A stretch of 20,475 nt of DNA, taken from positions 1-20,475 of the forward strand of contig WJKD01000929.1 in assembly GCA_014729315.1 (NCBI GenBank), read 5' to 3'. The notes beneath the pieces were generated by a model. That model saw nothing but the letters and a program-made list of their open reading frames with translations. It had not been told where the DNA came from and searched no databases. This document shows, piece after piece, positions 1 through 20,475 of the stretch; the first letter of the stretch is position 1; each line of letters begins with the position of its first letter. This DNA comes from Promethearchaeota archaeon. GTDB taxonomy: Archaea > Asgardarchaeota > Lokiarchaeia > Sigynarchaeales > SOKP01. The translations under genes and the position numbers were made by a program.

Positions 1-1773
1 GAGTATTAGATTGCGACTTTGCTTTTTATTACCAAAAAACTGTTTATATTGTTTTATAAGAGATGTTCTAGAAAATTTATAACCATGGTATTTTTGTATA
101 ACACTGTGCATTTTTTTATAATTGTATCCCATAGCAGTGTAAAATATAAGTTGAAAAAAGAGCTCTTGGTTAGCTGACGCTCCTCTCCCAGCAGCATCTT
201 GTCGGTTTAGACCAAACGCTCGAAGATCCAATGGAATTTGATACTCGGCGGCGATCTGTTGGAAATCTTGAAAGGTAAACTTATCCAGAAGTTCTTTATC
301 GCTATCAGAAAGTTTTCTAAATTCGCCGCTTTCCGAAGTAACAAACGCAATAAGCTCTTTTTCCGAAGCCGCTAAGGCGTTTGCCGTCCAGAAAACCCTT
401 AGGGGTTTGAACACGAAGCGTTCTTCAAATCTTTCCTTAGCAAGTATGTAATTAATTTTCCCGTTGTCGTCGTGGAAGTAGTTACTTCCATGAGTTCCAA
501 ACATATATTCGCGAATATAATGATGAATTGTGGGATTTCCGTCAGAAAAGTATTCTTTATCTTTTTGAGATCTGTAGTTTTTATCTCCCGGTTTAGGACG
601 ATATAGCGAGTCTCTCAGATAATACTTAAAGCGGATCGGATGAGGTACTTTAGATAAACCGACCTGAGAAATTCCAGACCATTTATCGTAGAGGATGTAG
701 GTGTAGCCCCACCACATGTATTTCAACTTACCTTCGATTCCGATAATTTCCGTTAAGTCTTCAGCAAGTTGAGCTTTCTGTAATCTCTCGTCATCGAGAT
801 AAAGCTGTTTTAGGTTGTCCCACGATAACTTAAGATTTGGATCGACGTAGTTCAAATGATCGATCACTAATTTTACATTTTGCTTCGCTTCCCTAAGTAG
901 TTTGCGAACAGTTTTGTGTGCGAAATATTTTAGATTTAGCTTTCCGTCAGGATCTTTCGCTTTCCATAGGAAGGATTTCAAATCGTATTGAGTAAACATA
1001 CTGAGGTCTTCCCCACCTCCAACGACTTTTGCCCATATTTGCATAGTACTATCTTGTTCTAATCCAAATTTTTCGACGGCGGTCTGTATAGAAATTTCAC
1101 GAGGTAGAGATTTTCCCTCAAGAACCAATTCCCACGAGCGATCTTCGGACAGAACTAATCCTTCCTCGGAGGCAACGGCTTTTAGGACGCTTTCGATGGT
1201 GTGTTCTGGTTTCGCTTTAATTCGGGTACGCTTTCCGACTCTCGAATCTTCGACGGTAAACCTAATCGATTCAAACGGAGGTTGCGCTTTTTGCCCGATC
1301 TCCATTGAAAATACTTTACCATCTGGCGTAATGGTATTTGACTGCGTTGCGGCGACTACGTAAGCGTTAAACTCGCGAATTGCGTCTAACTCGTTAAGCG
1401 TTGATTCTCCCGGAAATCCGTACGCAATAGGTTTTTGGAACGCTTTAAAGGCGTCCATACTCGAATAATCGCACTTGCCGAGCTCGCTTAATGCGATGGT
1501 TTGAGGCAAATTTGTGCCGATGACAAACGGCGGATTCTTGCCTTTTGCCTCTGAAAGCATTTGTATAGCGGTTGCCGAAACAGTAGCGGCTTTTTGGTAA
1601 TCGAGGTTTGCCGATACTTGGCTCCACGCGGCTTGGGACTTTGATTGTTCGAGTTTTTGTTTCCATGCGTTTTTTTGTTGTTGCTGCTGGGTCTGGCTTA
1701 TCTGGAAAGAGGGTGAATGCATGAGGTTGGTCGTAGTGTCTACTTGAGTCGAGCCGTAATATTGCCGACCCAT
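1..1773 (-). CDS. Large protein with internal ubiquitin-like domain and C-terminal-side HTH (partial)
   Basis: The reading frame is open from ATG at 1773 (a TGA lies three codons upstream) to the left edge, giving 591 residues without the end. Residues 1-60 are polar, with a Gln run (29-33). Residues about 168-254 read as a ubiquitin-like beta-grasp fold: a first strand near IRFTV, a strand ending in KAKP, a helix beginning TIESV, then EGL, a strand WELVLEGKSL, and a last strand STMQIWAKVV followed by GGG at 252-254. This follows the order of ubiquitin (TIENV, EGI, LIFAGKQL, STLHLVL, GG). The chain continues past the glycines for at least 335 residues. Residues about 545-580 (MGYNYKKMH, FSRTSLIKQY) look like a helix-turn-helix. 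I recognise no catalytic domain. By eye, base composition is richer in G+C than in most other genes here, which suggests transfer. There is no clear ribosome site, so a leaderless transcript is possible. The ubiquitin-like call is by eye; other beta-grasp families such as YukD/EsaB are alternatives. Confidence 0.8.
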   Translation of the reverse strand, partial: MGRQYYGSTQVDTTTNLMHSPSFQISQTQQQQQKNAWKQKLEQSKSQAAWSQVSANLDYQKAATVSATAIQMLSEAKGKNPPFVIGTNLPQTIALSELGKCDYSSMDAFKAFQKPIAYGFPGESTLNELDAIREFNAYVVAATQSNTITPDGKVFSMEIGQKAQPPFESIRFTVEDSRVGKRTRIKAKPEHTIESVLKAVASEEGLVLSEDRSWELVLEGKSLPREISIQTAVEKFGLEQDSTMQIWAKVVGGGEDLSMFTQYDLKSFLWKAKDPDGKLNLKYFAHKTVRKLLREAKQNVKLVIDHLNYVDPNLKLSWDNLKQLYLDDERLQKAQLAEDLTEIIGIEGKLKYMWWGYTYILYDKWSGISQVGLSKVPHPIRFKYYLRDSLYRPKPGDKNYRSQKDKEYFSDGNPTIHHYIREYMFGTHGSNYFHDDNGKINYILAKERFEERFVFKPLRVFWTANALAASEKELIAFVTSESGEFRKLSDSDKELLDKFTFQDFQQIAAEYQIPLDLRAFGLNRQDAAGRGASANQELFFQLIFYTAMGYNYKKMHSVIQKYHGYKFSRTSLIKQYKQFFGNKKQSRNLIL

Positions 1774-1846
1774 AGGACTTCATGTAGAAATTGCCCGATT
1801 CCCCCATTTCCCTCACGCTTGAACAAAAAACCGAAAAGGTGAATTA

Positions 1847-2739: not shown

Positions 2740-5700
2740 ATGAATAACAAAAACCTAATTAGAAGTTTAATATTAGGACTATCGATTTTAATAATCGCTT
2801 CGATTCTTCTCGGAAATCACACCGAAACCACTCAAGCTAACACGGATGTTTTCATTCCAGAAGAGGGATACCGCAACGAATGGCAATGGAACGACACTAT
2901 CGATGTTGGCGATAAGCTGATGTATGAAATTACCTATAAATCAGAAAATCTATCTTACACTTCATTTGGTGGAAGGTTAGTTAAAGATAATTTCATTCTC
3001 AACATCACATCCATCAATAACGACACAATTTTATGGCCTACGCCTTTAGTATTCTCACAGATCAACGCTACACAATTATATTACAATTGTAGCGATGACC
3101 AATTATACGAATACGAAGATGGACTACCATTCAGAATAGCTGCCTCTCGGCATGATCCATCAAGTAACTTTCAATATTTTATCGGTAATGAAAGGTTAGC
3201 CGTTCCGTTCGTCTTACCTTTTAACGATACGATAAATAACAATTTTAATCTGCTTGCTCAATCACTCAATCAATCGTTTTATGATCCTTATTACCAATAC
3301 GGAATTATTAATAAATGGAATTCGTATTCTTACAATGACATCAATAGAAATATTAGATTTGAAAATAGTTCGGGCTACTTTGCAGATCTTACATTCTTTG
3401 AAAATGGAACGCTTAATTCTGCAAGTATGTTCTTTTTACAATTACATGGAGCAGACGGGTATCATAATGTTACGATCAACCTCAAAAGAATCTACGAGCC
3501 AAATGTGCTAAGCGAAACCGAGTGGGGGTTTGAAGAAGGTGATGAAATATACTTAGGATTGAATGATATCGAACCTGGAAGATCTGAATTTATGGAAATA
3601 AAGGTAATCGTTGACCAGATCGTGACCGATCTCAACAACACTTACGCATTCAGATTATACGGAGGGCCTATGATAGACCAATGGACGTGTTTTTCATATG
3701 TGATAGGGGATGTGCGCGGATGGAATCCTCAAACTAAAGATTATGATCAACCGATTCAAACAGACTTCAATTTACTCGTAGCAAATAACCATTATCCTTT
3801 CTTGTTTACTTCTGATGAGAATAAAATAATTACTAATATTCCAGAAAATGTAGAAACGAGCGACCTTTTATATGTAAACGAATTTTATAAATTTTATCAA
3901 GACGATTATCCTTTTGAAAACACTGAAGTGATGCAAGAAAACGGTTTCACCATCGTCAATCAAACAAAAACCGAGGGTGGCGTTTTGTTAAATTATTATA
4001 ATACGACCTCAGGCAAAGGTGTATTACGAATAGAAGAGGACGGTACGGGAAACGAATATAGCGTTGCTTATCCTAAAGAAGAGCATATAATTACTGATGA
4101 TACTCCTAAGGCTTTAAAAAACGAATATGGTCAGTATCTAAAATGGGATGCGGAACTCTCAATCGACTATTCAAATGATATCAAATTATACACAGCATTA
4201 TTTCCGCAAAGTCCAGTTAATTTTTCGACAATAATGATTGATGTCTTAGGACATGAAGGTTTTGATGTGGGGTTTAACGATGAACTTAGCGAATACCGAG
4301 TATATTTAGAATTATATTCAAACTATTCAGATTCTCTTACTGAATCTGATAAAATCAACATTACATTTTCTTACGATAATGGTTTAAAAACCTTGCTTGA
4401 TGCTCGAGGATATTCCTTAAGAGACTTAAGACCCTATTACCTCTATAATGATTCTAGCAACAATCAAGATTTCGATTACTTCTGGCTACCTCTCGATAAT
4501 CAATATATAATTGACATAGACGAGGATAATAATGAGATTATCTTTTCAATCCCTCCTATCGATATAGACATGGAATATCTCTACATCACGGTTGGATTGA
4601 GTACATCAGCGGATATAGATTACTCCGTTCAACCAGGAGATGTCTTTTATTACGGCGGGTTTGACGACGAACCACAACATAACGGAACGGTCGTTGAAAC
4701 AAAAGTAGTAATTGATTATGTGGGAATTGAAAGGAGATCATATAATATGACTGATTGGTATGCGAATAATGGAGATGGAATTATATTTAACGGACCAGGT
4801 CCAGAGATACAAGATTTTATCCTCGTAGAAGCAAATGTCTCTAGGTGGAATAACGAAACAAAATCCTTTGATCAGGAAGATCCTAACATAAAAATAGGCC
4901 TTGGAAATAACTACTTTGCTTTGTTTCCATTTGAATTGCAGTCAGACCTGCGTGCAATGTTCCTACCAATAGGAACTGTAGGCTCAGACTTAGTGAAAAC
5001 CGCGGCGAGTCCATACGATGGTGCATCTACAATTGAAACCGAACATGTCCGATATACGAGCGTAACATATTCCGGAAAGTTCATCGACTTCCGATTCAAC
5101 AGCACTACCGGGCAGATAACAAATATTTACGGTTGGGGCTATAAGGGAAGTGGAAATTTTATGTATCTTTCTCAATTTGAAATGCATAATGAGACTTTAT
5201 TAACTGGTGAAAACTTATATTCATTGAAAAGCGAACTCATAACAGAGAACACATTTACCGCAAATATTTCGGCGGCCGGCGAAACAGATTTCTATTACGG
5301 GTTAATTGACAATAATCCCGTCAACGAATCAATCTCAGGAACTCCATTGTTTTTCCTAGATATATTGATCAATGATTCAAGTAAAGTCAGTTTTATGACT
5401 CTTCTTATCCAACTGAGTTCTTCATACGATGTGTCTAAGATGGATCTTAATATTTATGCGTGGCTTTTCGAAGACTCAATCGGGCGCCACGAATGGAACA
5501 GCGATCCACCACCTTCGACGACTTGGGACGATTGGATCACTATTGATAATCAAGGAAACAATATTTCCATCGTGATTCCATTCGATCCGAGCCGGCCGAT
5601 TGATTTCCTCGTTGCCGTATCTTACACAACTAGTTCTCCCGCACCTCCTGCCGCAGACGACGATGACGACGACGACGACGATGGAGCTCCTGCAGCTATT

Positions 5701-5787
5701 CCGGGATTTGAGATCTACATAATACTAGCCAGTGTCACATTAATCTCACTTTTGGTCATATTGAAGCGAAGAAAATTAGTAAAATAA
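2740..5787 (+). CDS. Secreted modular surface protein with PGF-type C-terminal anchor, shorter paralogue
   Basis: This 1015-residue protein has an N-terminal hydrophobic signal (about 8-33), then an extracellular body rich in N-x-S/T sequons, Tyr, Asp and Asn. The C-terminus has nine Asp (973-981), Ala/Pro, IPGFE (987-991), a membrane helix and KRRKLVK. That layout matches archaeal sorting or anchoring tails of the PGF-CTERM kind, cut by archaeosortases in other archaea. The body is modular. Module A begins with a GD-hydrophobic-Tyr motif (GDKLMYE about 57, GDEIYLG about 266, GDVFYYG about 633). Module B is a beta-rich stretch (about 490-610 and 867-965) containing a D-I/V-L strand and a later Y/W strand. 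The order is A-A-B-A-B. ATG 2740 is chosen because the signal peptide follows directly. The gene is followed by a 680-bp gap and a longer paralogue, so local duplication is likely. A role in the cell envelope is inferred; no enzyme motif is visible. Confidence 0.85.
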   Translation: MNNKNLIRSLILGLSILIIASILLGNHTETTQANTDVFIPEEGYRNEWQWNDTIDVGDKLMYEITYKSENLSYTSFGGRLVKDNFILNITSINNDTILWPTPLVFSQINATQLYYNCSDDQLYEYEDGLPFRIAASRHDPSSNFQYFIGNERLAVPFVLPFNDTINNNFNLLAQSLNQSFYDPYYQYGIINKWNSYSYNDINRNIRFENSSGYFADLTFFENGTLNSASMFFLQLHGADGYHNVTINLKRIYEPNVLSETEWGFEEGDEIYLGLNDIEPGRSEFMEIKVIVDQIVTDLNNTYAFRLYGGPMIDQWTCFSYVIGDVRGWNPQTKDYDQPIQTDFNLLVANNHYPFLFTSDENKIITNIPENVETSDLLYVNEFYKFYQDDYPFENTEVMQENGFTIVNQTKTEGGVLLNYYNTTSGKGVLRIEEDGTGNEYSVAYPKEEHIITDDTPKALKNEYGQYLKWDAELSIDYSNDIKLYTALFPQSPVNFSTIMIDVLGHEGFDVGFNDELSEYRVYLELYSNYSDSLTESDKINITFSYDNGLKTLLDARGYSLRDLRPYYLYNDSSNNQDFDYFWLPLDNQYIIDIDEDNNEIIFSIPPIDIDMEYLYITVGLSTSADIDYSVQPGDVFYYGGFDDEPQHNGTVVETKVVIDYVGIERRSYNMTDWYANNGDGIIFNGPGPEIQDFILVEANVSRWNNETKSFDQEDPNIKIGLGNNYFALFPFELQSDLRAMFLPIGTVGSDLVKTAASPYDGASTIETEHVRYTSVTYSGKFIDFRFNSTTGQITNIYGWGYKGSGNFMYLSQFEMHNETLLTGENLYSLKSELITENTFTANISAAGETDFYYGLIDNNPVNESISGTPLFFLDILINDSSKVSFMTLLIQLSSSYDVSKMDLNIYAWLFEDSIGRHEWNSDPPPSTTWDDWITIDNQGNNISIVIPFDPSRPIDFLVAVSYTTSSPAPPAADDDDDDDDDGAPAAIPGFEIYIILASVTLISLLVILKRRKLVK

Positions 5788-6467: not shown

Positions 6468-9400
6468 ATGAAACGAAAACACACGAAACGTATTTTATTG
6501 ATATTTTTACTTGCGTTTCCTACTGCGCTTCTATTTGGATTTTTATTAACTAACGCTCACGCTGAATCCTATATACCAGAACACGCAGATGATAAACCTA
6601 AAAATAATTGGCACTGGGGCGTCGATGAGGGCGATATCATAATGTACGAATTCACCTACGAGGCTATAAATCTAAGCGATTCGGATCAAACAAGAATGAA
6701 AGGTAAATATGTAAAGGCAATGAACATCTCGAGTATTGCTAATGTTTCCGATAGTTATATGGGACTTATATCGGGAGATTTTTCACACCTTAACGTCACA
6801 AATGTATACTGGAACTATAGCGCAGACGAATGGGTTGAATACGATGATGACTATACCATCAGTGAGGCAAGATACGACGATACCGCTGGTTCACCTGAAA
6901 TTTATGTAGAGTTTGGAGATGGTTTAAACTTTTTTGTTTTACCCAAAAACCAAACTGCATTTAACGCTACTGACATAGCTGGATCAGTTAACCGAACATT
7001 AGAGATGTATTATCTGGCTGGCTACGTAAATGATTTTAACGAATATATAACCGAAGATAGCGTTTCGAATAATCAAAAAATCGCCTTCTCGAACACTACG
7101 ATGGATCATTACCTTAATCTTACATATTACGATAATGGCACTTTAAAATATGGTGATTTATCCATAAAAATTAGTACAGATCAAGCTTGGAGCGACTGGA
7201 TGCAGGTAAACATGAAGATTGAAAGAGTTTTTGATTGGAATGTCACTAACGATGTGGAATGGTCCGTAGAAGAAGAGGATGTATTGTACGTGGGAAATAA
7301 CGAAAAATACCCCGAGGGTGAGATTGAACCCGTATACGAAGAAATAAAGATAGAAATTACTGCCATCAATTCGTCTTATTACGAGTATCAAGGTATGAGC
7401 GAGGATGAAATAGTCAGGATGTTATTTGAAAATGTATACGCTGACTTATTCAAATGGAATAGAGAAAACGAAGAATACGAGTTAATATTGGAAGATCAAC
7501 TAATTGCGTGTGCGAATAATTACTATCCATTTCTCTTATTACAATTATTGGCAGGAGATTCAAAAATGTTAGCCCTTATGCCTAAAGATACAACACCTTC
7601 CGACCTTGAATTAATTTTCGACAACAATACTTATTTTATGGAGGAACGGTTAGAAAGCAAGAAGGCTTATTTAGGGTCAGATGGATATATTCGATTGGAA
7701 AACGAAGATATCACCATGCAACGGGAATTTCAATTCGATCTTGAGACGGGTATTTTAAAATGGTTTTACCAATACAACAGCACCGAGAGATTAATGGCGG
7801 GATTCAGGAAAAACTCAACAATACTTACTACCGGTTCGGGAACATTCGATCTGTGGTCTGATGTCGTTACGGAATGGGACCTGTCTATGGATTATACTTG
7901 TAGCTCAGACGCAGAAATCTATTGGTCGGTCCAAAAGCAGAATATTGCATTTGATAGGTCGCTTGAATACAACCCTTGGAAATTGCCAGAACCTAATCAA
8001 ATTTACATCGACGTGTATACCAACGCTTCGGGAGATTTCTCTTACCCGGTTGAATTCACTTTATCTTATTCCGATACGTTAGAAAGTGCAGTCGGAGTGA
8101 ACGAATCTGCGCTAAGACCTTATTATTACGATTTCGAAAATGACGAGTGGGTATTGGTGTCTAATAATTACTTTAACCTTGATACAGAAAATAATGAGAT
8201 TAAGTTCGATTTGATCCAAGACGCCTGGGGGAGCTATTTAACCATCGGCTACGCCTCAGATGCAAATGTATCCTGGTCAGTTGATATCGGAGATGTGCTC
8301 TACCTAGGAAAACGCGAACCTGGAAACAACAATGTAGTACCGGTAAGAATGGAGATTTTATACTTCAATAATTCATACATAGAAAGCGTCGATGATACGC
8401 CATTTGGTTCTAATGGAGGACCGCAAAATCAAGTGTTCTCTAATGTAGTCGCTAATGTATCTGATTGGACTTATAACGATGGAGGTTATTGGCAGGAGCC
8501 GACTGAAATGATTATCGCCTCTTCGAATAATTATTGGGCTGTGGGTCCGCATATGTTAGGTGCAAACAGTCCACCTCCGTCTTTATTACCAATCGGAACA
8601 AATGGAACGGATGTAAAAGATGTATTTGACGGATTAGATTTTTGGGATCAACTAAATACAGGTGTTGATTGGGTTTACTTCTATAATACCACTGCGGACG
8701 TACCATTTATGGCAAATTGGAGCTATGCGACAGGTGAGATCTCTCTCTTAGCGGGTTATATGTATATGGACCAAGGTTGGGACAGTTTTACTTATTATCG
8801 ATATAAGGAAGCGATATATGAATCGAATACTTATACGGATATATCGTTAGATTCGGACTTAGTCGATAAATGGACACTTACCGTTAATTTTACTTGTTCA
8901 GACGACGAGTTAGTTTTGTGGAAAATTTTACCCGTCAATCCTGTACAGCATATAAAATTGATGAATTACCTTCCAGAGAACGCCAGTTTATTCTTTGACA
9001 TCTTCGTAAATAATACGGAAACGATCTCTTCAGTAAACCTTACAATTGACTATGGTTCAGCAGAGACAAGTTTGAATGCAGTAGGGATTTACGCTGAAGA
9101 TTTAAACCCCTATGGTTTGGATCCAGATTTTAATATTTGGAATCCAGCACCATTAGATGCTTTCGATCTTGACGAGACAGATAAAGAAATATACTCGTTT
9201 TCTCTTGAAGAAGCGGGTGCGGTACTTTACGCAATCGGAACATCGATGACAAGTCGTATGGACTGGTCGGTAGAAATAGGTGATATCTTATATTACGGAG
9301 GTCAACCTTATGTAGAACAGAGTGGTACGGAAAAAGGATTTGTTAAAATAGAAATTACTAATATCAACGAAACAGGTGAATTAGTGGATCTAGAGGAAGC

Positions 9401-10457
9401 TGGTGTTGATTACTCAGAGATGCCTCAAAATCAATCTTTTAGCTTAGTTTGGGGCGATTTTTCTCATTGGAACAATACGGCCAGAGAATGGATTAACGAG
9501 GGAGTACAATTAATGGCCGCAGCAAACAATTACTTTCCAACAGCGCCAACGGGAATATATGAAGCAATCGATTCGGGTTCGGGAGGACCGATATATTTAA
9601 TTCCGTTAGGATTTAGCGGAACTGATATCGCAGATTCGTTTATAAGCTGTAGAATCACAAATTATACCGTCGACGATTCAGGAGGCGAATATATTCACCT
9701 TATTTATCCTGAAGACACAACTAAATTCGTAAAATTATACTTTGACGACGAAACGGGCATAGTGAAGGACTACTTTGGATACGATCAACATCCTATTTCA
9801 TTTGACTGGATATATTTTGCCGGGTGGAATTTAAAGAATGAAACATTCACAGCAGGAGATTACGACTACATTGTTGACGGTTTTGGCTTGGAGCAATTAA
9901 ATGTAAATATAACATCTAATATTACGATTACTGGTGGAAATTTTGATCTATTCTCCCATATTTTTACGTACGAGCCCGGTGAAACCCAAATCGGACGAGG
10001 GACACCGATAATCTACATGGATCTGTTAGGAATAAATTTTACGAACAATATTCACAGATTTAATTTTACAATCGAACTCCCAACTTCTATCGATCTATCA
10101 GAAGTAACCATAGATCTTTGGAGATACGAATTAAATGATATTAACGATCCTAACGACGACGATTGGGGAAGACATCCAGATCCTATTGGAGATGGTGCTT
10201 TGGTAATTAACGAGTCAGAGAATTACATCGTCGTTAAATTTTCAACCGAAGGGGGGTCAGGTGGTTCACTTTTCGCCGTTTCTTATTATACACCTAGTCC
10301 TCCGGCTCCACCTCCACCAGCAGGAGACGACGATGATGACGACGACGACGATGATATTCCCGCAGCTATACCGGGTTTCGAAATCTATTTGTTATTCGCA
10401 AGTATCGCAGTGATTTCACTTCTGATAATAGAAAAGCGCAGAAAACTAATCAAATAA
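6468..10457 (+). CDS. Secreted modular surface protein with PGF-type C-terminal anchor, longer paralogue
   Basis: This 1329-residue protein has a basic N-terminus (KRKHTKR), a hydrophobic signal to about residue 32 ending in AHA, an extracellular body dense in N-x-S/T sequons, ten Asp (1287-1296), IPGFE (1301-1305), a membrane helix and KRRKLIK. Module A starts (W.V..GD/ED..Y) are at about 51, 265, 603 and 934. Module B stretches start at about 512, 840 and 1183. The order is therefore A-A-B-A-B-A-B, one A-B pair (roughly 330 residues) more than the upstream paralogue, which accounts for the 314-residue length difference. Several A modules also share a later NNY(F/W/Y) motif. Function is probably structural or S-layer-like, or binding at the cell surface; no catalytic motif is recognised. 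The T-rich 3' flank converges with the minus-strand gene ending at 10488. Confidence 0.85.
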   Translation: MKRKHTKRILLIFLLAFPTALLFGFLLTNAHAESYIPEHADDKPKNNWHWGVDEGDIIMYEFTYEAINLSDSDQTRMKGKYVKAMNISSIANVSDSYMGLISGDFSHLNVTNVYWNYSADEWVEYDDDYTISEARYDDTAGSPEIYVEFGDGLNFFVLPKNQTAFNATDIAGSVNRTLEMYYLAGYVNDFNEYITEDSVSNNQKIAFSNTTMDHYLNLTYYDNGTLKYGDLSIKISTDQAWSDWMQVNMKIERVFDWNVTNDVEWSVEEEDVLYVGNNEKYPEGEIEPVYEEIKIEITAINSSYYEYQGMSEDEIVRMLFENVYADLFKWNRENEEYELILEDQLIACANNYYPFLLLQLLAGDSKMLALMPKDTTPSDLELIFDNNTYFMEERLESKKAYLGSDGYIRLENEDITMQREFQFDLETGILKWFYQYNSTERLMAGFRKNSTILTTGSGTFDLWSDVVTEWDLSMDYTCSSDAEIYWSVQKQNIAFDRSLEYNPWKLPEPNQIYIDVYTNASGDFSYPVEFTLSYSDTLESAVGVNESALRPYYYDFENDEWVLVSNNYFNLDTENNEIKFDLIQDAWGSYLTIGYASDANVSWSVDIGDVLYLGKREPGNNNVVPVRMEILYFNNSYIESVDDTPFGSNGGPQNQVFSNVVANVSDWTYNDGGYWQEPTEMIIASSNNYWAVGPHMLGANSPPPSLLPIGTNGTDVKDVFDGLDFWDQLNTGVDWVYFYNTTADVPFMANWSYATGEISLLAGYMYMDQGWDSFTYYRYKEAIYESNTYTDISLDSDLVDKWTLTVNFTCSDDELVLWKILPVNPVQHIKLMNYLPENASLFFDIFVNNTETISSVNLTIDYGSAETSLNAVGIYAEDLNPYGLDPDFNIWNPAPLDAFDLDETDKEIYSFSLEEAGAVLYAIGTSMTSRMDWSVEIGDILYYGGQPYVEQSGTEKGFVKIEITNINETGELVDLEEAGVDYSEMPQNQSFSLVWGDFSHWNNTAREWINEGVQLMAAANNYFPTAPTGIYEAIDSGSGGPIYLIPLGFSGTDIADSFISCRITNYTVDDSGGEYIHLIYPEDTTKFVKLYFDDETGIVKDYFGYDQHPISFDWIYFAGWNLKNETFTAGDYDYIVDGFGLEQLNVNITSNITITGGNFDLFSHIFTYEPGETQIGRGTPIIYMDLLGINFTNNIHRFNFTIELPTSIDLSEVTIDLWRYELNDINDPNDDDWGRHPDPIGDGALVINESENYIVVKFSTEGGSGGSLFAVSYYTPSPPAPPPPAGDDDDDDDDDDIPAAIPGFEIYLLFASIAVISLLIIEKRRKLIK

Positions 10458-10470
10458 CGGAATTTTAAAA

Positions 10471-10506
10471 TTTTCTTTTATTTTATTTTATTTTATCATT
10501 TTTACT
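10471..10506. terminator. T-rich convergent termination region with (TTTTA)4
   Basis: The 30 bp between the two converging genes hold T-runs with four exact TTTTA units (10476-10495). On the plus strand this is a typical archaeal U-rich terminator for surface gene 2. The minus-strand stop codon at 10488-10490 lies inside the repeat. Confidence 0.5.
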
Positions 10507-11972
10507 CTTACAAATAAATTAAATGTTCGAGGACCGAACGTGACTAGCACGTAGAAGTTTTCTCGGCTGCCGATTTCAAATTTTCCGTCTAATATAGGAA
10601 GGATTAATTGACGACTTCCATAAGTGCTTGCTAACTCGTGGTCGTAGTGATTAAAGTCGGCCCGATTTTCTAACGCCCGCACGGTATGCAAAAATTCAGA
10701 ACTGTCTTTTTTTGAAATCTCTGCAAACGCGTAATGTAAATCGAGATAATTACCATACTCGTGCTCGTTTATAACAAGCGTGGTGGTCGTATGATAGGAA
10801 CGTACGAACATTTCGCCATTTTTAAAATCACCGTATTTTTTACAGGAAATACCTAAAATTGTCTTGAAAAGATCTGTGAGAAAAATGAGTTGGGTAATAC
10901 TATAGCTCCTTAGTTTAACTTTATAAATCATTTCGACTTCAGTGTCAGTTTCGATAATATTTTTTAATTCAATATTCCTAAGCGTCTTATAATACTCATG
11001 TGAACTGTCTTTTTGTGAAGCAAAAGATCGTGAATTAAGCCTAACTACATTTCGAAATGCCCAACTGCGCAATGTACTCCTTTGTGAAAATGTAAGGCTT
11101 TCGGAAGCTTCGTAGAACCCTCGGACAACTTGCGAAATTTCGAGCGTAGGAGTTGCACTTCCAATTAATATCCTACTCCAACAATTTTGAACAAACCCAT
11201 CCATCTTAAAAAGATTTGTAAATACATCCGTTGGAGTTGTACCGCCGAACGTACGCGGATCTATTTCGAGCCACACGTTATTAAAATATTTTAAGAGTGG
11301 ATAATATCGTGTAATGTCGCTTGTAAGATCAAGTCCACTTAAAATAACAATATTTTCTTGATACAAAGAAAGGAACGATTGTAGTTTTTCCTTAGATATG
11401 ACGTCGTAAAAATTAGGAAAGAAGTAATTACCTATATCAATCTTTAAAAATAATTCGTTAGTTTTTAAATACGCTAATAATTCAGAGAACGAGCTATTCT
11501 TGAGTTTGCTTAAATCAAGATTAGTATAAGTAGGATAAACCACAATTCCGATTACATCGCATTCCTTTTGATATTTATTTAATTCTCCTATAATATGTTC
11601 AAAGTTAGATTTATCAGATAAATTGAAGGACAAAATCGCTTTGAAAGTTTTAGTGTTCTTCCTTACAGCTGTGATTACGTCCTCGTTTAGGATTCCATAC
11701 TCTCGACCTAAATCCATCGCTTGTAAGAAAGCCATATTTAAGTTAGCGCAACTTAATTCGACGATTTCATCTTCAACCGTTATTCTTCTCGTATAAAAAT
11801 ACCCTCTTCCTTGTGGGTTTTGGAGAGACAGCAAATTTTTTAACTGATTTGACTTTTCGATGTCTTCAAAAATAGGCCACACTAGAGAATCAACTTGCGG
11901 AAATATGAACGCGTTTGCGAATTTTTCTCCGAAGATACAAGAAAAATCGGGTTGATATAATCGTTCTTCCAT
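10488..11972 (-). CDS. Degenerate amidohydrolase-like barrel fused to a YjbQ/UPF0047 domain
   Basis: The protein has 494 residues. The C-terminal part (about 355-494) matches the YjbQ family (TIGR00149, secondary thiamine-phosphate synthase activity): HTTTTLVINE (His394), FLH (His429), HYDHELAS (His445), then LPILDGKFEIGS and a GPR near the end. The putative metal-site histidines are kept. The N-terminal part (1-330) follows the order of an amidohydrolase_2 barrel (strand FKAILSF, VIGIVVYP, LFLKIDIG, NIVILSG, NVWLEIDP, RILIGSATPT). However, the ligands seen in the intact homologue at 17207 are absent: there is no N-terminal HxH, IHSG has become IDIG, AHCG has become LSGL, and GTDGS has become GSATP. 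The barrel is probably non-catalytic, perhaps a binding or scaffold domain. The gene lies 114 bp downstream of the sensor genes on the same strand. The YjbQ call is firm; the barrel call is moderate. Confidence 0.75.
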   Translation of the reverse strand: MEERLYQPDFSCIFGEKFANAFIFPQVDSLVWPIFEDIEKSNQLKNLLSLQNPQGRGYFYTRRITVEDEIVELSCANLNMAFLQAMDLGREYGILNEDVITAVRKNTKTFKAILSFNLSDKSNFEHIIGELNKYQKECDVIGIVVYPTYTNLDLSKLKNSSFSELLAYLKTNELFLKIDIGNYFFPNFYDVISKEKLQSFLSLYQENIVILSGLDLTSDITRYYPLLKYFNNVWLEIDPRTFGGTTPTDVFTNLFKMDGFVQNCWSRILIGSATPTLEISQVVRGFYEASESLTFSQRSTLRSWAFRNVVRLNSRSFASQKDSSHEYYKTLRNIELKNIIETDTEVEMIYKVKLRSYSITQLIFLTDLFKTILGISCKKYGDFKNGEMFVRSYHTTTTLVINEHEYGNYLDLHYAFAEISKKDSSEFLHTVRALENRADFNHYDHELASTYGSRQLILPILDGKFEIGSRENFYVLVTFGPRTFNLFVRVKMIK

Positions 11973-18806: not shown

Positions 18807-18840
18807 AATCTAATTTATTCAATCTTCTTTCTTTTTATTT
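18807..18840. terminator. Short convergent T-rich spacer
   Basis: The 28-bp gap between the converging genes reads into CTTCTTTCTTTTTATTTG on the plus strand. This is suitable to end the flavin-reductase transcript just inside the regulator's 3' end. Confidence 0.35.
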
Positions 18841-19254
18841 GTGATGCTCAATGCAATAACAGCCTCTTGCGTTTGGGATCAATTCGTTTTGTGGAGTCTT
18901 CTTCGGATGTCCGTATTTCTCGCATATTTTTTTAATTGTCTTACAAGAAAAGAGAAGATTAAACTTTTCACTTTCAGCTTGAGCCTCTTTGTTGCTGAGT
19001 CCTAATTCTTTGTGTAAAAGCAATTCTAATAGTTTTGCGTGTCGAATTAATTCAAGAGCGAGATCAACCCCTTTATCGGTTAATCTTACTTTCTTATAAC
19101 GTCTATATTTCACTAATCCTTGTTCCTCTAATCTCTTAATGCAACTCCCGATCGTAGAGTGTGCTAAATCCAATAAGGAAGAGATATTTCCCACCTTTAA
19201 ATTTTCTGGCGATTTATACAGTAATTTTATAACCTTGTAATCTAAATCGATCAT
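18835..19254 (-). CDS. DtxR/MntR-type metal-dependent repressor with altered metal site
   Basis: This 139-residue protein has the two-domain length of MntR rather than long DtxR. Residues 1-60 are a winged helix-turn-helix (VGNISSLLDLAHSTIGSCIKRLEEQGLVKY, wing RYKKVRLTDKG). The dimerisation part reads LIRHAKLLELLLHKELGLSNKEAQAESEKFNLLFSC and then YGHPKKTP...LIP. In usual members the segment AE.LEH supplies metal ligands; here the E-H pair is replaced by Asn-Leu (SEKFNL), with a Cys three residues on. The tail ends GCYCIEHHK, adding two Cys and two His. It lies directly downstream of the ZIP transporter genes, so it probably controls them in response to zinc, manganese or iron. A metal other than Mn/Fe, or a Cys-based site, is possible. 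AAGG lies just before the ATG. Confidence 0.8.
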   Translation of the reverse strand: MIDLDYKVIKLLYKSPENLKVGNISSLLDLAHSTIGSCIKRLEEQGLVKYRRYKKVRLTDKGVDLALELIRHAKLLELLLHKELGLSNKEAQAESEKFNLLFSCKTIKKICEKYGHPKKTPQNELIPNARGCYCIEHHK

Positions 19255-19272: not shown

Positions 19273-19337
19273 ATTAAATCTATATATAAAAAAAAATTGT
19301 CTATAACTAAACTAGTTTATTTCAAGAATGAACTAGT
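19273..19337 (-). promoter_or_regulatory. Promoter and candidate operator of the metal regulator gene
   Basis: On the minus strand, TATATATA (19281-19288) lies 27-34 nt before the ATG at 19254, fitting a leaderless transcript. Upstream of it is the perfect 12-bp palindrome TAAACTAGTTTA (19308-19319). A second ACTAGT (19332-19337) overlaps the end of the ZIP gene exactly 21 bp from the first ACTAGT (19311-19316), or two helical turns. This layout suits a dimeric regulator bound twice on one face, possibly autoregulation. Confidence 0.45.
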
Positions 19338-20094
19338 GACCATGTCCCCCCAAATTAAATATTAACAATAATGTTAGTACGCCTAAAATTATGAGAACTA
19401 GCTGCCGAATGGTGTGTTTTATTCCTAATTTCTGGTGTAGTTCAGGCGTTAAATCGGAAAGAGCGATATATATAAAACTCGCAGCTGAAATTGCAAGAAC
19501 ATATGGAACAAAGATTTGGATGTTTCCTAATATAAAATAGCTGAGTATAGCAGAAGGAATCGTAGTTGCGCTTGATATGGCGTTAGCTACGTAGGATTTC
19601 TTTTTTGACATGCCACTATGTATTAAAATACCAAAATCCCCAGTTTCTTGAGGAATCTCGTGGGCAATAATAGCAAATCCCACAGCAATTCCTACCATTA
19701 TGTTAGTCAAAAATGCAGCAGCAATGACAATTCCATCAGTGAAATTGTGAAGAGCGTCCCCGATAAGCACTATAGGCCCTGCGGCTTCACCATGTATATC
19801 GCAACTCGGCTCAGAACAATTTCTCCATATTATAATTTTCTCAAGAAGAAAAAAGAATAAAATTCCTCCTATTACGACCAACATTACGTTATGAGATTGG
19901 TGTCCAGTTAGATGGATAGCTTCTGGAATTAAACTGTAAAACGCTGCTGTTAAAAGAGTTCCAGTTGCAAAAGCAATCAAAATGGATATTATGCTTTTTT
20001 GCCTCCTCTCGCTTAATAAAATAAAACCTGCAGCAGCAGTAATAGCTCCTATTGAGCCTAAAATACTGAACAATATTATCCATGTTAGAGTCAT
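19333..20094 (-). CDS. ZIP family divalent metal transporter
   Basis: This 253-residue, eight-helix membrane protein has the ZIP core motifs HNFTDG (His116, Asn117, Asp120) in the fourth helix and HEIPQE (His145, Glu146, Glu150) in the fifth, which form the binuclear metal path. A loop between helices three and four carries CSEPSCDIHGE, and the C-terminus ends GGHGH; both could collect metal. The FATGTLLTAAFYSLIPEA start of helix two is typical. It imports zinc or another divalent metal across the cell membrane. The gene is 30 bp downstream of a second ZIP gene and 78 bp upstream of the DtxR-like gene, all on the minus strand, so an operon is likely. ATG 20094 places the first helix immediately after Met. 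Confidence 0.9.
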   Translation of the reverse strand: MTLTWIILFSILGSIGAITAAAGFILLSERRQKSIISILIAFATGTLLTAAFYSLIPEAIHLTGHQSHNVMLVVIGGILFFFLLEKIIIWRNCSEPSCDIHGEAAGPIVLIGDALHNFTDGIVIAAAFLTNIMVGIAVGFAIIAHEIPQETGDFGILIHSGMSKKKSYVANAISSATTIPSAILSYFILGNIQIFVPYVLAISAASFIYIALSDLTPELHQKLGIKHTIRQLVLIILGVLTLLLIFNLGGHGH

Positions 20095-20117
20095 TGACCA
20101 TCAAATGTTTTGTTATT

Positions 20118-20130
20118 ATTAAATCTATAT
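20118..20130 (-). promoter_or_regulatory. AT-rich box shared with the regulator gene upstream region
   Basis: ATTAAATCTATAT here is identical to 19273-19285. Read on the minus strand (ATATAGATTTAAT), it ends 23 nt before the ZIP start at 20094 and overlaps the stop codon of the upstream ZIP gene. It may be an internal promoter or a binding site common to both genes. Confidence 0.35.
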
Positions 20131-20475
20131 CATACCTTTTAGCGAAAAAATTATCACCATTATAGAAATACCTAAAAATACTAATATCAACTGCCTCAAT
20201 GTATAACTAATACCCATTTTATGATGCAGTTGTGGAGTTAAATCCGATAAAGCAATGTATAAAAAGCTTGCTGCGGATATTGCTAATACGTAAGGGATTA
20301 AGAGGGAAATTTTATCCAAGATAAAATAACCAAAGATCCCAGCGGGAATAGTAGAACAACCAGATAGACTATTGTAAATAAAAGCCTTTTTTGCAGGGTA
20401 ATTCTTATCCATTAAAATACCAATATCTCCAACTTCTTGTGGGATTTCGTGCGCAATAACAGATAAGCTTACAGC
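20125..20475 (-). CDS. Second ZIP family metal transporter (partial, C-terminal part)
   Basis: The frame is open to the right edge; 116 residues and the stop are visible. It begins inside the fifth helix with AVSLSVIAHEIPQEVGDIG, so only the last four helices are seen and the HN..D motif lies outside the window. The stretch PYVLAISAASFLYIALSDLTP is nearly identical to the downstream ZIP protein, which shows a tandem duplication, while the middle part (MDKNYPAKKAFIYNSLSG) has diverged. It ends in KGMI without the His-rich tail of its paralogue. The pair may differ in metal preference or affinity. Confidence 0.85.
   Translation of the reverse strand, partial: AVSLSVIAHEIPQEVGDIGILMDKNYPAKKAFIYNSLSGCSTIPAGIFGYFILDKISLLIPYVLAISAASFLYIALSDLTPQLHHKMGISYTLRQLILVFLGISIMVIIFSLKGMI

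Follow-up and report, generated by a model that had tools for sequence, protein, structure and literature searches.

In eukaryotes ubiquitin is produced in fused form and has to be released by proteases, and it may be asked where this habit came from. The window analyzed here (the whole stretch of 20,475 nucleotides) raises the same matter in an archaeon, since a gene at its left edge encodes a ubiquitin-like (UBL) domain ending in Gly-Gly-Gly inside a long protein. What is such a domain doing there? The first-pass annotation placed it at residues 168-254 (window 1272-1012, minus strand) of a DNA-binding-type protein and considered a cleavable precursor, a self-processing polyprotein and a fixed interaction module.

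The gene at the left edge

The whole open frame (1..1773, minus strand) encodes 591 amino acids, and the contig end cuts its C-terminus. Residues 1-72 (1558..1773) form a cassette junction with 85% identity to residues 659-730 of P0002 (GF383_14210), a partial Lokiarchaeota protein whose last 72 residues are the matching ones; in P0002 this stretch comes directly after a conserved core. The junction is followed, on the same minus strand, by a linker with no detected relatives (residues 73-166, 1276..1557), a UBL domain of the UBL-A type (residues 167-251, 1021..1275), the Gly-Gly-Gly (residues 252-254, 1012..1020), a GIY-YIG-like nuclease region recognized by motif order in an 8-row alignment (residues 276-530, 184..948) and a putative DNA-binding tail read from the alignment as a helix-turn-helix-like repeat (residues 531-591, 1..183), the remainder of which lies beyond the contig. 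An in-frame TGA stop (1780..1782, minus strand) is located directly 5' of the ATG, and tblastn within the window found no P0002-like core 5' of the ORF, indicating that the cassette stands alone. A simple hydropathy scan revealed no hydrophobic segments above threshold in the ORF.

A protein search with residues 165-400 returned the window protein as the sole match, a scan of genome_contigs with the whole protein gave no match and PADLOC returned nothing for five proteins. A viral origin of the gene was considered and dropped, since no viral relatives were found in viral_contigs with the whole protein, the UBL alignment or the core alignment as queries, and phage tblastn with the window protein was also empty. 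The gene is carried by a single contig, and of the candidates scored out of 5.8 billion sequences none was a full-length relative, as would be expected if unrelated genes had been joined in one frame by the assembly. However, three parts with independent Lokiarchaeal relatives share one uninterrupted frame, and the order UBL-GGG-effector recurs in two further genomes, G157 and G158, so that an assembly chimera is hardly credible.

The embedded domain is kin to free-standing modifiers

Taken alone, segment 168-254 gave a sub-threshold Pfam match to TUG-UBL1 (E 0.031) and matched ubiquitins in the PDB at E 0.3 and worse. A ubiquitin fold was supported when the UBL profile A4 was searched against the PDB, and was recognized by Foldseek and VIA-align in a model of residues 162-262 (pLDDT 65.9), bearing out the fold first proposed from the sequence. 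Four of nine Lokiarchaeal genomes match the window protein, at one place each and within residues 158-256; the matching frames have 93-107 codons (E 1.7e-18 to 4.1e-16, 35-40% identity), and these small genes end in ...ALWARVVGG or VVGGF. The glycine tail noted earlier is also real: VVGG is aligned in five of five rows, among them the window, whose domain ends in VVGGG, and the first two Gly of its Gly-Gly-Gly align with the C-terminal Gly-Gly of free UBL-A and with the end of ubiquitin. These results confirm that residues 168-254 are a ubiquitin-type domain whose nearest kin are the Lokiarchaeal free-standing UBL-A modifiers, and we hold both the identity of the domain and its genomic context with high confidence.

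The UBL-A profile matches 29 of the 227 genomes of the phylum, with free-standing genes in 26; the other three contain an embedded copy only (G157), a 24-position fragment (G004) and a weak match in a 195-codon frame (G168). Gly-Gly is present in all 31 free UBL-A of the fetched loci, and 24 of them carry 1-4 further residues, suggesting that trimming would be needed. A second free-standing modifier, UBL-B, was matched by profile A8 in 113 of 227 genomes at E<=0.001, a figure that takes in weak matches and embedded copies. Among 45 free-like rows Gly-Gly was found in 31/31 of UBL-A, 11/12 of UBL-B and 1/2 of the others.

The window UBL combines a beta-grasp ubiquitin fold with a di-glycine at the fold end, and 337 residues come after its Gly-Gly-Gly in place of a free C-terminus or short tail. 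It is therefore not classed as a mature modifier, in agreement with the first-pass annotation. It could still be the precursor of a true modifier, from which cleavage would make a conjugatable linker-UBL-GG with the nuclease as a passenger. The conserved VVGG tail, together with the frequency of Gly-Gly plus a short tail among free UBL-A, would suit such a precursor, but the 166-residue N-terminal linker is of the cassette type and the body of the UBL has changed far more than that of free UBL-A, although a modifier must fit E1, E2 and E3. This makes a modifier precursor very improbable. The self-processing polyprotein gained no support, as Pfam finds no protease in the window protein.

Ubiquitin machinery beside free-standing UBL-A

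The expectation that Asgard archaea carry E1, E2 and Rpn11-like genes holds for the relatives, in which such genes adjoin UBL-A: an E2 at L081 (Pfam UQ_con, 2e-9), an E1 at L084 (ThiF, 1e-49) and a JAB protease at L290 (Pfam, 6e-13) and L302 (2e-10). A membrane protein with RING-like cysteines is also present at L081 (Prok-RING_1 E 0.023, below cut-off). At four loci (L290, L291, L301 and L302) a row consisting of a P-loop-like gene, JAB, E1 and E2 faces UBL-A; Pfam UQ_con, ThiF and JAB were confirmed on single examples. The P-loop-like gene of L290 gave weak AAA/Roc matches below cut-off, and the JAB frame of L291 (G126:C1:2666498-2666830) sits between the first gene and the E1. A membrane gene adjoins UBL-A at L290 and L291; other, cysteine-rich genes occupy this place at L301 and L302 (by eye). 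Pfam JAB is found in 5-7 copies per genome in all ten genomes tested, and in all seven of these with a free UBL-A a JAB frame of 164-202 codons lies <=5 kb from it.

The clustering of Lokiarchaeal ubiquitin-type genes with their enzymes resembles the Asgard Ub-ESCRT system (PMC9192718), whereas a UBL embedded in a large protein is not mentioned in the available sections of that work. At L116 (G126:C1:1978000-1997000) two extra UBL-A paralogues adjoin GTPase-like and TM/RING-like genes, and no E1 or E2 was recognized by eye among the listed frames.

A GIY-YIG-like nuclease and helix-turn-helix in the C-terminal part

For residues 276-591, partial matches were obtained in six genomes, at seven places overall (E 9e-23 to 0.004). 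Two of the seven are the core-bearing frames G128:C8 and G128:C9, with no UBL found behind the core in either, and five are frames without a detected core. In the window and these seven relatives G356, Y359, G372, R381, E471 and N523 are invariant and follow the GIY-YIG order. In L222, a core protein, Pfam recognizes a GIY-YIG domain (E 2.3e-5, above cut-off), and a weak HTH_23 match follows it. Profile A7, built from the window nuclease and its relatives, aligns with this domain at the motif; the score is 34.4, and 30 shuffles reached 20.2 at most. When A7 was compared with a profile of 11 UvrC-type and short GIY-YIG sequences (one of 12 having been excluded for a stop), it scored 16.6 and the best of 28 column-shuffled controls 12.7, so that the bridge to L222 is the stronger of the two. 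A7 also finds L240 (E 2.5e-26) and L217 (1e-11), both core proteins, and by its last third only a further one, L229 (9e-8); L240 (G142:C74) is a frame of 13,771 codons and the longest tipped by a nuclease of the window type. Pfam PF01541 (GIY-YIG) matched neither the window protein nor the relatives' places in 8 genomes, a PDB profile search of the nuclease region gave no GIY-YIG match and a model of residues 335-534 had a pLDDT of 32.5. The motifs and the bridge to L222 suggest that residues ~276-591 constitute a GIY-YIG-like nuclease plus helix-turn-helix, for which nuclease activity is predicted. The first-pass description of a DNA-binding-type protein was close: the helix-turn-helix agrees with it, and the C-terminal part as a whole now reads as a putative nuclease.

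Related giant proteins share one core and vary in their tips

The core that precedes the junction in P0002 is a conserved stretch with a hydrophobic segment. Thirty of 227 genomes contain matches to its profile, A6, at 61 places in all; the matching frames reach 14,833 codons, and the surroundings were taken for all but one of these places. After removal of repeats, fifty frames remained whose 3' end is complete and whose tail comprises >=350 residues. Their cores form one cluster with 84.5% of pairs linked, whereas their last 250 residues fall into 24 clusters with 4.5% of pairs linked; a shared junction and replaceable tips, as in polymorphic toxin cassettes, are thus both present. A same-strand gene follows within 150 bases in 41 of 49 core frames; for other genes at these loci the figure is 28 of 96 (Fisher p 2.6e-10). 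In no fewer than two of the 41 cases (L218, L242) the next gene resembles a broken frame of the same gene. The 3' side of the window gene lies beyond the contig, and this pattern is read from its relatives. The gene 3' of P0005, a protein of G157 with embedded UBLs, is related to the gene 3' of core protein L223 (z 8.8, none of 500 shuffles as high), and the genes 3' of L146 and L228 are unrelated (24/500 shuffles). A likeness between the tips of P0005 and L223, seen by eye, is not claimed, since 15 of 500 shuffles scored equally.

In the 950 residues that come directly after each of the 50 cores, Pfam (E<=0.01) found the S24 peptidase and HTH_23 twice each, and LAGLIDADG_3, LAGLIDADG_1, ubiquitin, GIY-YIG, HTH_3, DUF2207_C, Eaf7, PBECR1 (a toxin-type nuclease, E 0.005), CENP-H and DUF4379 once each; at least 36 of the 50 frames had no Pfam match there. 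The LAGLIDADG endonuclease domain lies in the core-protein tips of L223 and L224 (G147:C10 and C26), two copies with equal scores, and the tip of L147 resembles a VSR-type PD-(D/E)XK nuclease (by eye only).

Eleven Lokiarchaeal frames of 9,130-14,833 codons carry the core near the C-terminal end. From core to C-terminus there are ~1,100 residues in G130:C3 (L286-L288, L230), ~780 in G139:C48 (L232) and ~805 in G142:C74 (L240). Within the first 1,055 residues of G130:C3, the longest frame of all, ten stretches are hydrophobic according to a hydropathy scan only.

The LAGLIDADG domains of L223 and L224, the existence of GIY-YIG/HTH frames without a detected core (L175-L177, L179 and L180) and the publication of giant genes of Asgard mobile elements (PMC8813620, in part) would all be compatible with something other than a toxin, namely a mobile or domestic GIY-YIG/HTH nuclease of the homing type that acquired the UBL and linker, the giants being mobile-element or surface proteins. 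Such an origin appears quite improbable in view of the single core facing 24 tip clusters, the excess of close same-strand genes, the related genes downstream of P0005 and L223 and the variety of the nuclease-type tips. Since the window gene is one cassette of a modular giant-protein family with variable tips, which goes beyond the earlier reading of this locus, a toxin-type cassette is its best reading. The layout of the Lokiarchaeal giants is that of polymorphic toxins; toxicity, immunity and delivery would be the functions predicted from it.

Tox-URI, a domain of polymorphic toxins, is itself a GIY-YIG domain. As in those systems, the giants have a constant N-terminal part, variable nuclease-type tips, close downstream genes and, in some members, a candidate processing domain before the tip (PMC3482391). 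The processing domains described there are peptidases, for example HINT and caspase-like, unlike the UBL of the window; no ubiquitin-like processing module was met in the available part of that source, which also states that classical polymorphic toxin systems are few in most archaea. Giant Asgard proteins have been published in a paper whose main text does not contain the words toxin or ubiquitin (PMC8813620), and we found no description of Asgard giants with a polymorphic-toxin layout in the open-licence literature.

Which embedded UBL domains keep Gly-Gly

After repeat removal there are 18 rows of embedded UBLs, and Gly-Gly is kept in five: the window (VVGGG), the first UBL of P0005 (VVGGG), its second UBL (KGG), L146 (YGGG) and L144 (SGGA). 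Five of the 61 core-bearing rows gave a UBL, many of these loci extending only 500 residues past the core. Gly-Gly is lost in L142 (AAG), L149 (AAA) and L215 (RGN), which are all three of the core-bearing rows with a readable tail; in L213 and L214 (both core-bearing) and in L297 the UBL match ends short of the tail. It is also absent from L112, L143, L147, L148, L250, L298 and L299, which have no core in frame; L143 abuts a core frame, and L147 and L148 are contig-edge fragments. With 5 of 18 embedded rows keeping Gly-Gly, a cut at this site cannot be a general rule.

UBLs such as those of Rad23 or parkin are fixed interaction modules. The window UBL might likewise never be cut and might dock to an E2, an ESCRT UEV protein or an unfoldase, thereby steering or holding the nuclease. 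The UBL-B domains of L142, L149 and L215 speak for this, having lost Gly-Gly, and L142 is still above the Pfam ubiquitin cut-off (32.6 vs 25.4 bits), indicating that the fold was kept without the tail. On the other hand, both UBLs of P0005, that of L146 and that of the window keep Gly-Gly directly before the next part. P0005 has the order UBL-A-GGG, UBL-B-GG and then 341 amino acids, and L146 has UBL-B-GGG followed by 325 amino acids with an HNH-like tip (HNH by eye). The two UBL-A copies have also retained their tail despite branch lengths of 2.56 and 2.13 (median 0.027): conserved columns are kept in 11 of 12 positions of the tail and 52 of 118 of the body (Fisher p 0.0015 for both copies; the window alone is weak, p 0.08), with the reservation that embedded UBL-A is known from two copies only and that structural constraints may preserve the last strand. 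In a tree of 33 UBL-A rows the two embedded copies did not group, their branches being too long to trust. We consider a fixed module unlikely for the window. Of the readings first put forward, the fixed interaction module is favoured for the UBLs of core-bearing giants that lack Gly-Gly, and the cleavable precursor for the copies that keep it; the embedded UBL itself is confirmed and its earlier interpretation partly supported.

The place of the UBL within the cassette was compared with L228, in which a signal-peptidase/S24-like domain containing the motif GVSMYP comes after the core and before a tip of the L146 type. Pfam S24 matched the last 450 residues of L228 at E 1.3e-4 (22.1 bits vs a cut-off of 23.3), and the tips of L146 and L228 are alike (z 16, 0/500 shuffles), suggesting that UBL-GG occupies the slot taken by a protease-like domain in another member. 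In the draft genome G157, the carrier of P0005, six JABs and no free-standing UBL-A were found; if this absence is real, the cutter would be one of its own JABs or one of the recipient's.

Further arrangements were noted at other loci. In L144:5926-7668 (G159:C5) a UBL-B ending in GGA is N-terminal in a 581-codon frame with many paired cysteines, which appear zinc/RING-like and in a parkin-like order of parts (by eye). P0005 lies near tyrosine recombinase-like and HicA/HicB-like genes (L114, G157:C59; by eye). L250:1-1971 (G157:C37) encodes a UBL-B (tail AAAS) with an HNH-like tip, one gene 3' of a core frame; an LRR gene intervenes between the two frames, and the UBL-B frame resembles another orphan cassette. 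L112 (G168:C168) has a UBL-like stretch without Gly-Gly followed by a zinc-ribbon-like tail. A UBL after the core of P0004, suspected by eye, was dropped because its hhalign E-value was 0.13, a level that several shuffled controls out of 20 also reached.

A possible release site before the nuclease

We propose that the window gene belongs to a Lokiarchaeal polymorphic-toxin-like family as an orphan C-terminal cassette, with the order junction linker, UBL with intact Gly-Gly-Gly, GIY-YIG-like nuclease and helix-turn-helix. In full-size relatives such cassettes form the variable tips of giants behind the conserved core. UBL-GG would be the release site, where a JAB/Rpn11-type protease, belonging either to the producer or to the cell receiving the protein, would cut after Gly-Gly and free the nuclease. 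We regard this reading, in which both toxicity and cleavage are predicted, as having a nearly even claim to be right. A more specific version, in which UBL fusions and JAB act together as a release switch and the nuclease stays locked until a JAB, possibly that of the recipient, cuts, is put forward tentatively and with less assurance. If true, ubiquitin chemistry would take part in cell-to-cell conflict in the archaeal lineage nearest eukaryotes.

The release model is founded on the slot seen in L146 and L228 and on two lines of published work. Tip release in the polymorphic toxins of bacteria has been ascribed to peptidases located immediately in front of the tip (PMC3482391), and Caldiarchaeum Rpn11 cuts pro-ubiquitin after Gly-Gly and detaches ubiquitin from a ubiquitin-GFP fusion (PMC5654768). 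The Lokiarchaeal case resembles that of Caldiarchaeum in its ubiquitin fold, in the residues beyond Gly-Gly and in the JAB near E1/E2 genes, and differs in that the natural extension there has 9 residues and the modifier is the product (PMC5654768), whereas in the window >330 residues of nuclease-like protein come after Gly-Gly and a 166-residue linker precedes the UBL.

In eukaryotic ubiquitin-ribosomal protein fusions UBL-GG also stands before an unrelated protein, from which it is separated by proteolysis; the cargo there is a ribosomal protein and in the window a nuclease-like cassette. We found no description of the layout UBL-GGG-nuclease in the open-licence literature, including the available part of PMC6393860. 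With the Lokiarchaeal cassette, the processing of a ubiquitin fusion that carries a biological cargo could be tested directly outside eukaryotes, and the matching free modifier, E1, E2 and JAB are present in relatives of its carrier.

Other genes in the window

Two large, related-looking proteins of secreted type with poly-Asp are encoded at 2740-5787 and 6468-10457 (by eye); both have a C-terminal end of PGFEIY, a hydrophobic stretch and RRK, as in surface proteins (by eye). A 494-residue protein encoded at 10488-11972 has a C-terminal UPF0047 match and a different N-terminal part. At 19333-20475 there are two adjacent ZIP transporter genes, 55% identical in alignment. The one at 19333-20094 has 72% identity to a ZIP gene of a Lokiarchaeia genome, in keeping with an Asgard host. 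Both are adjoined by a DtxR-type regulator gene (18835-19254).
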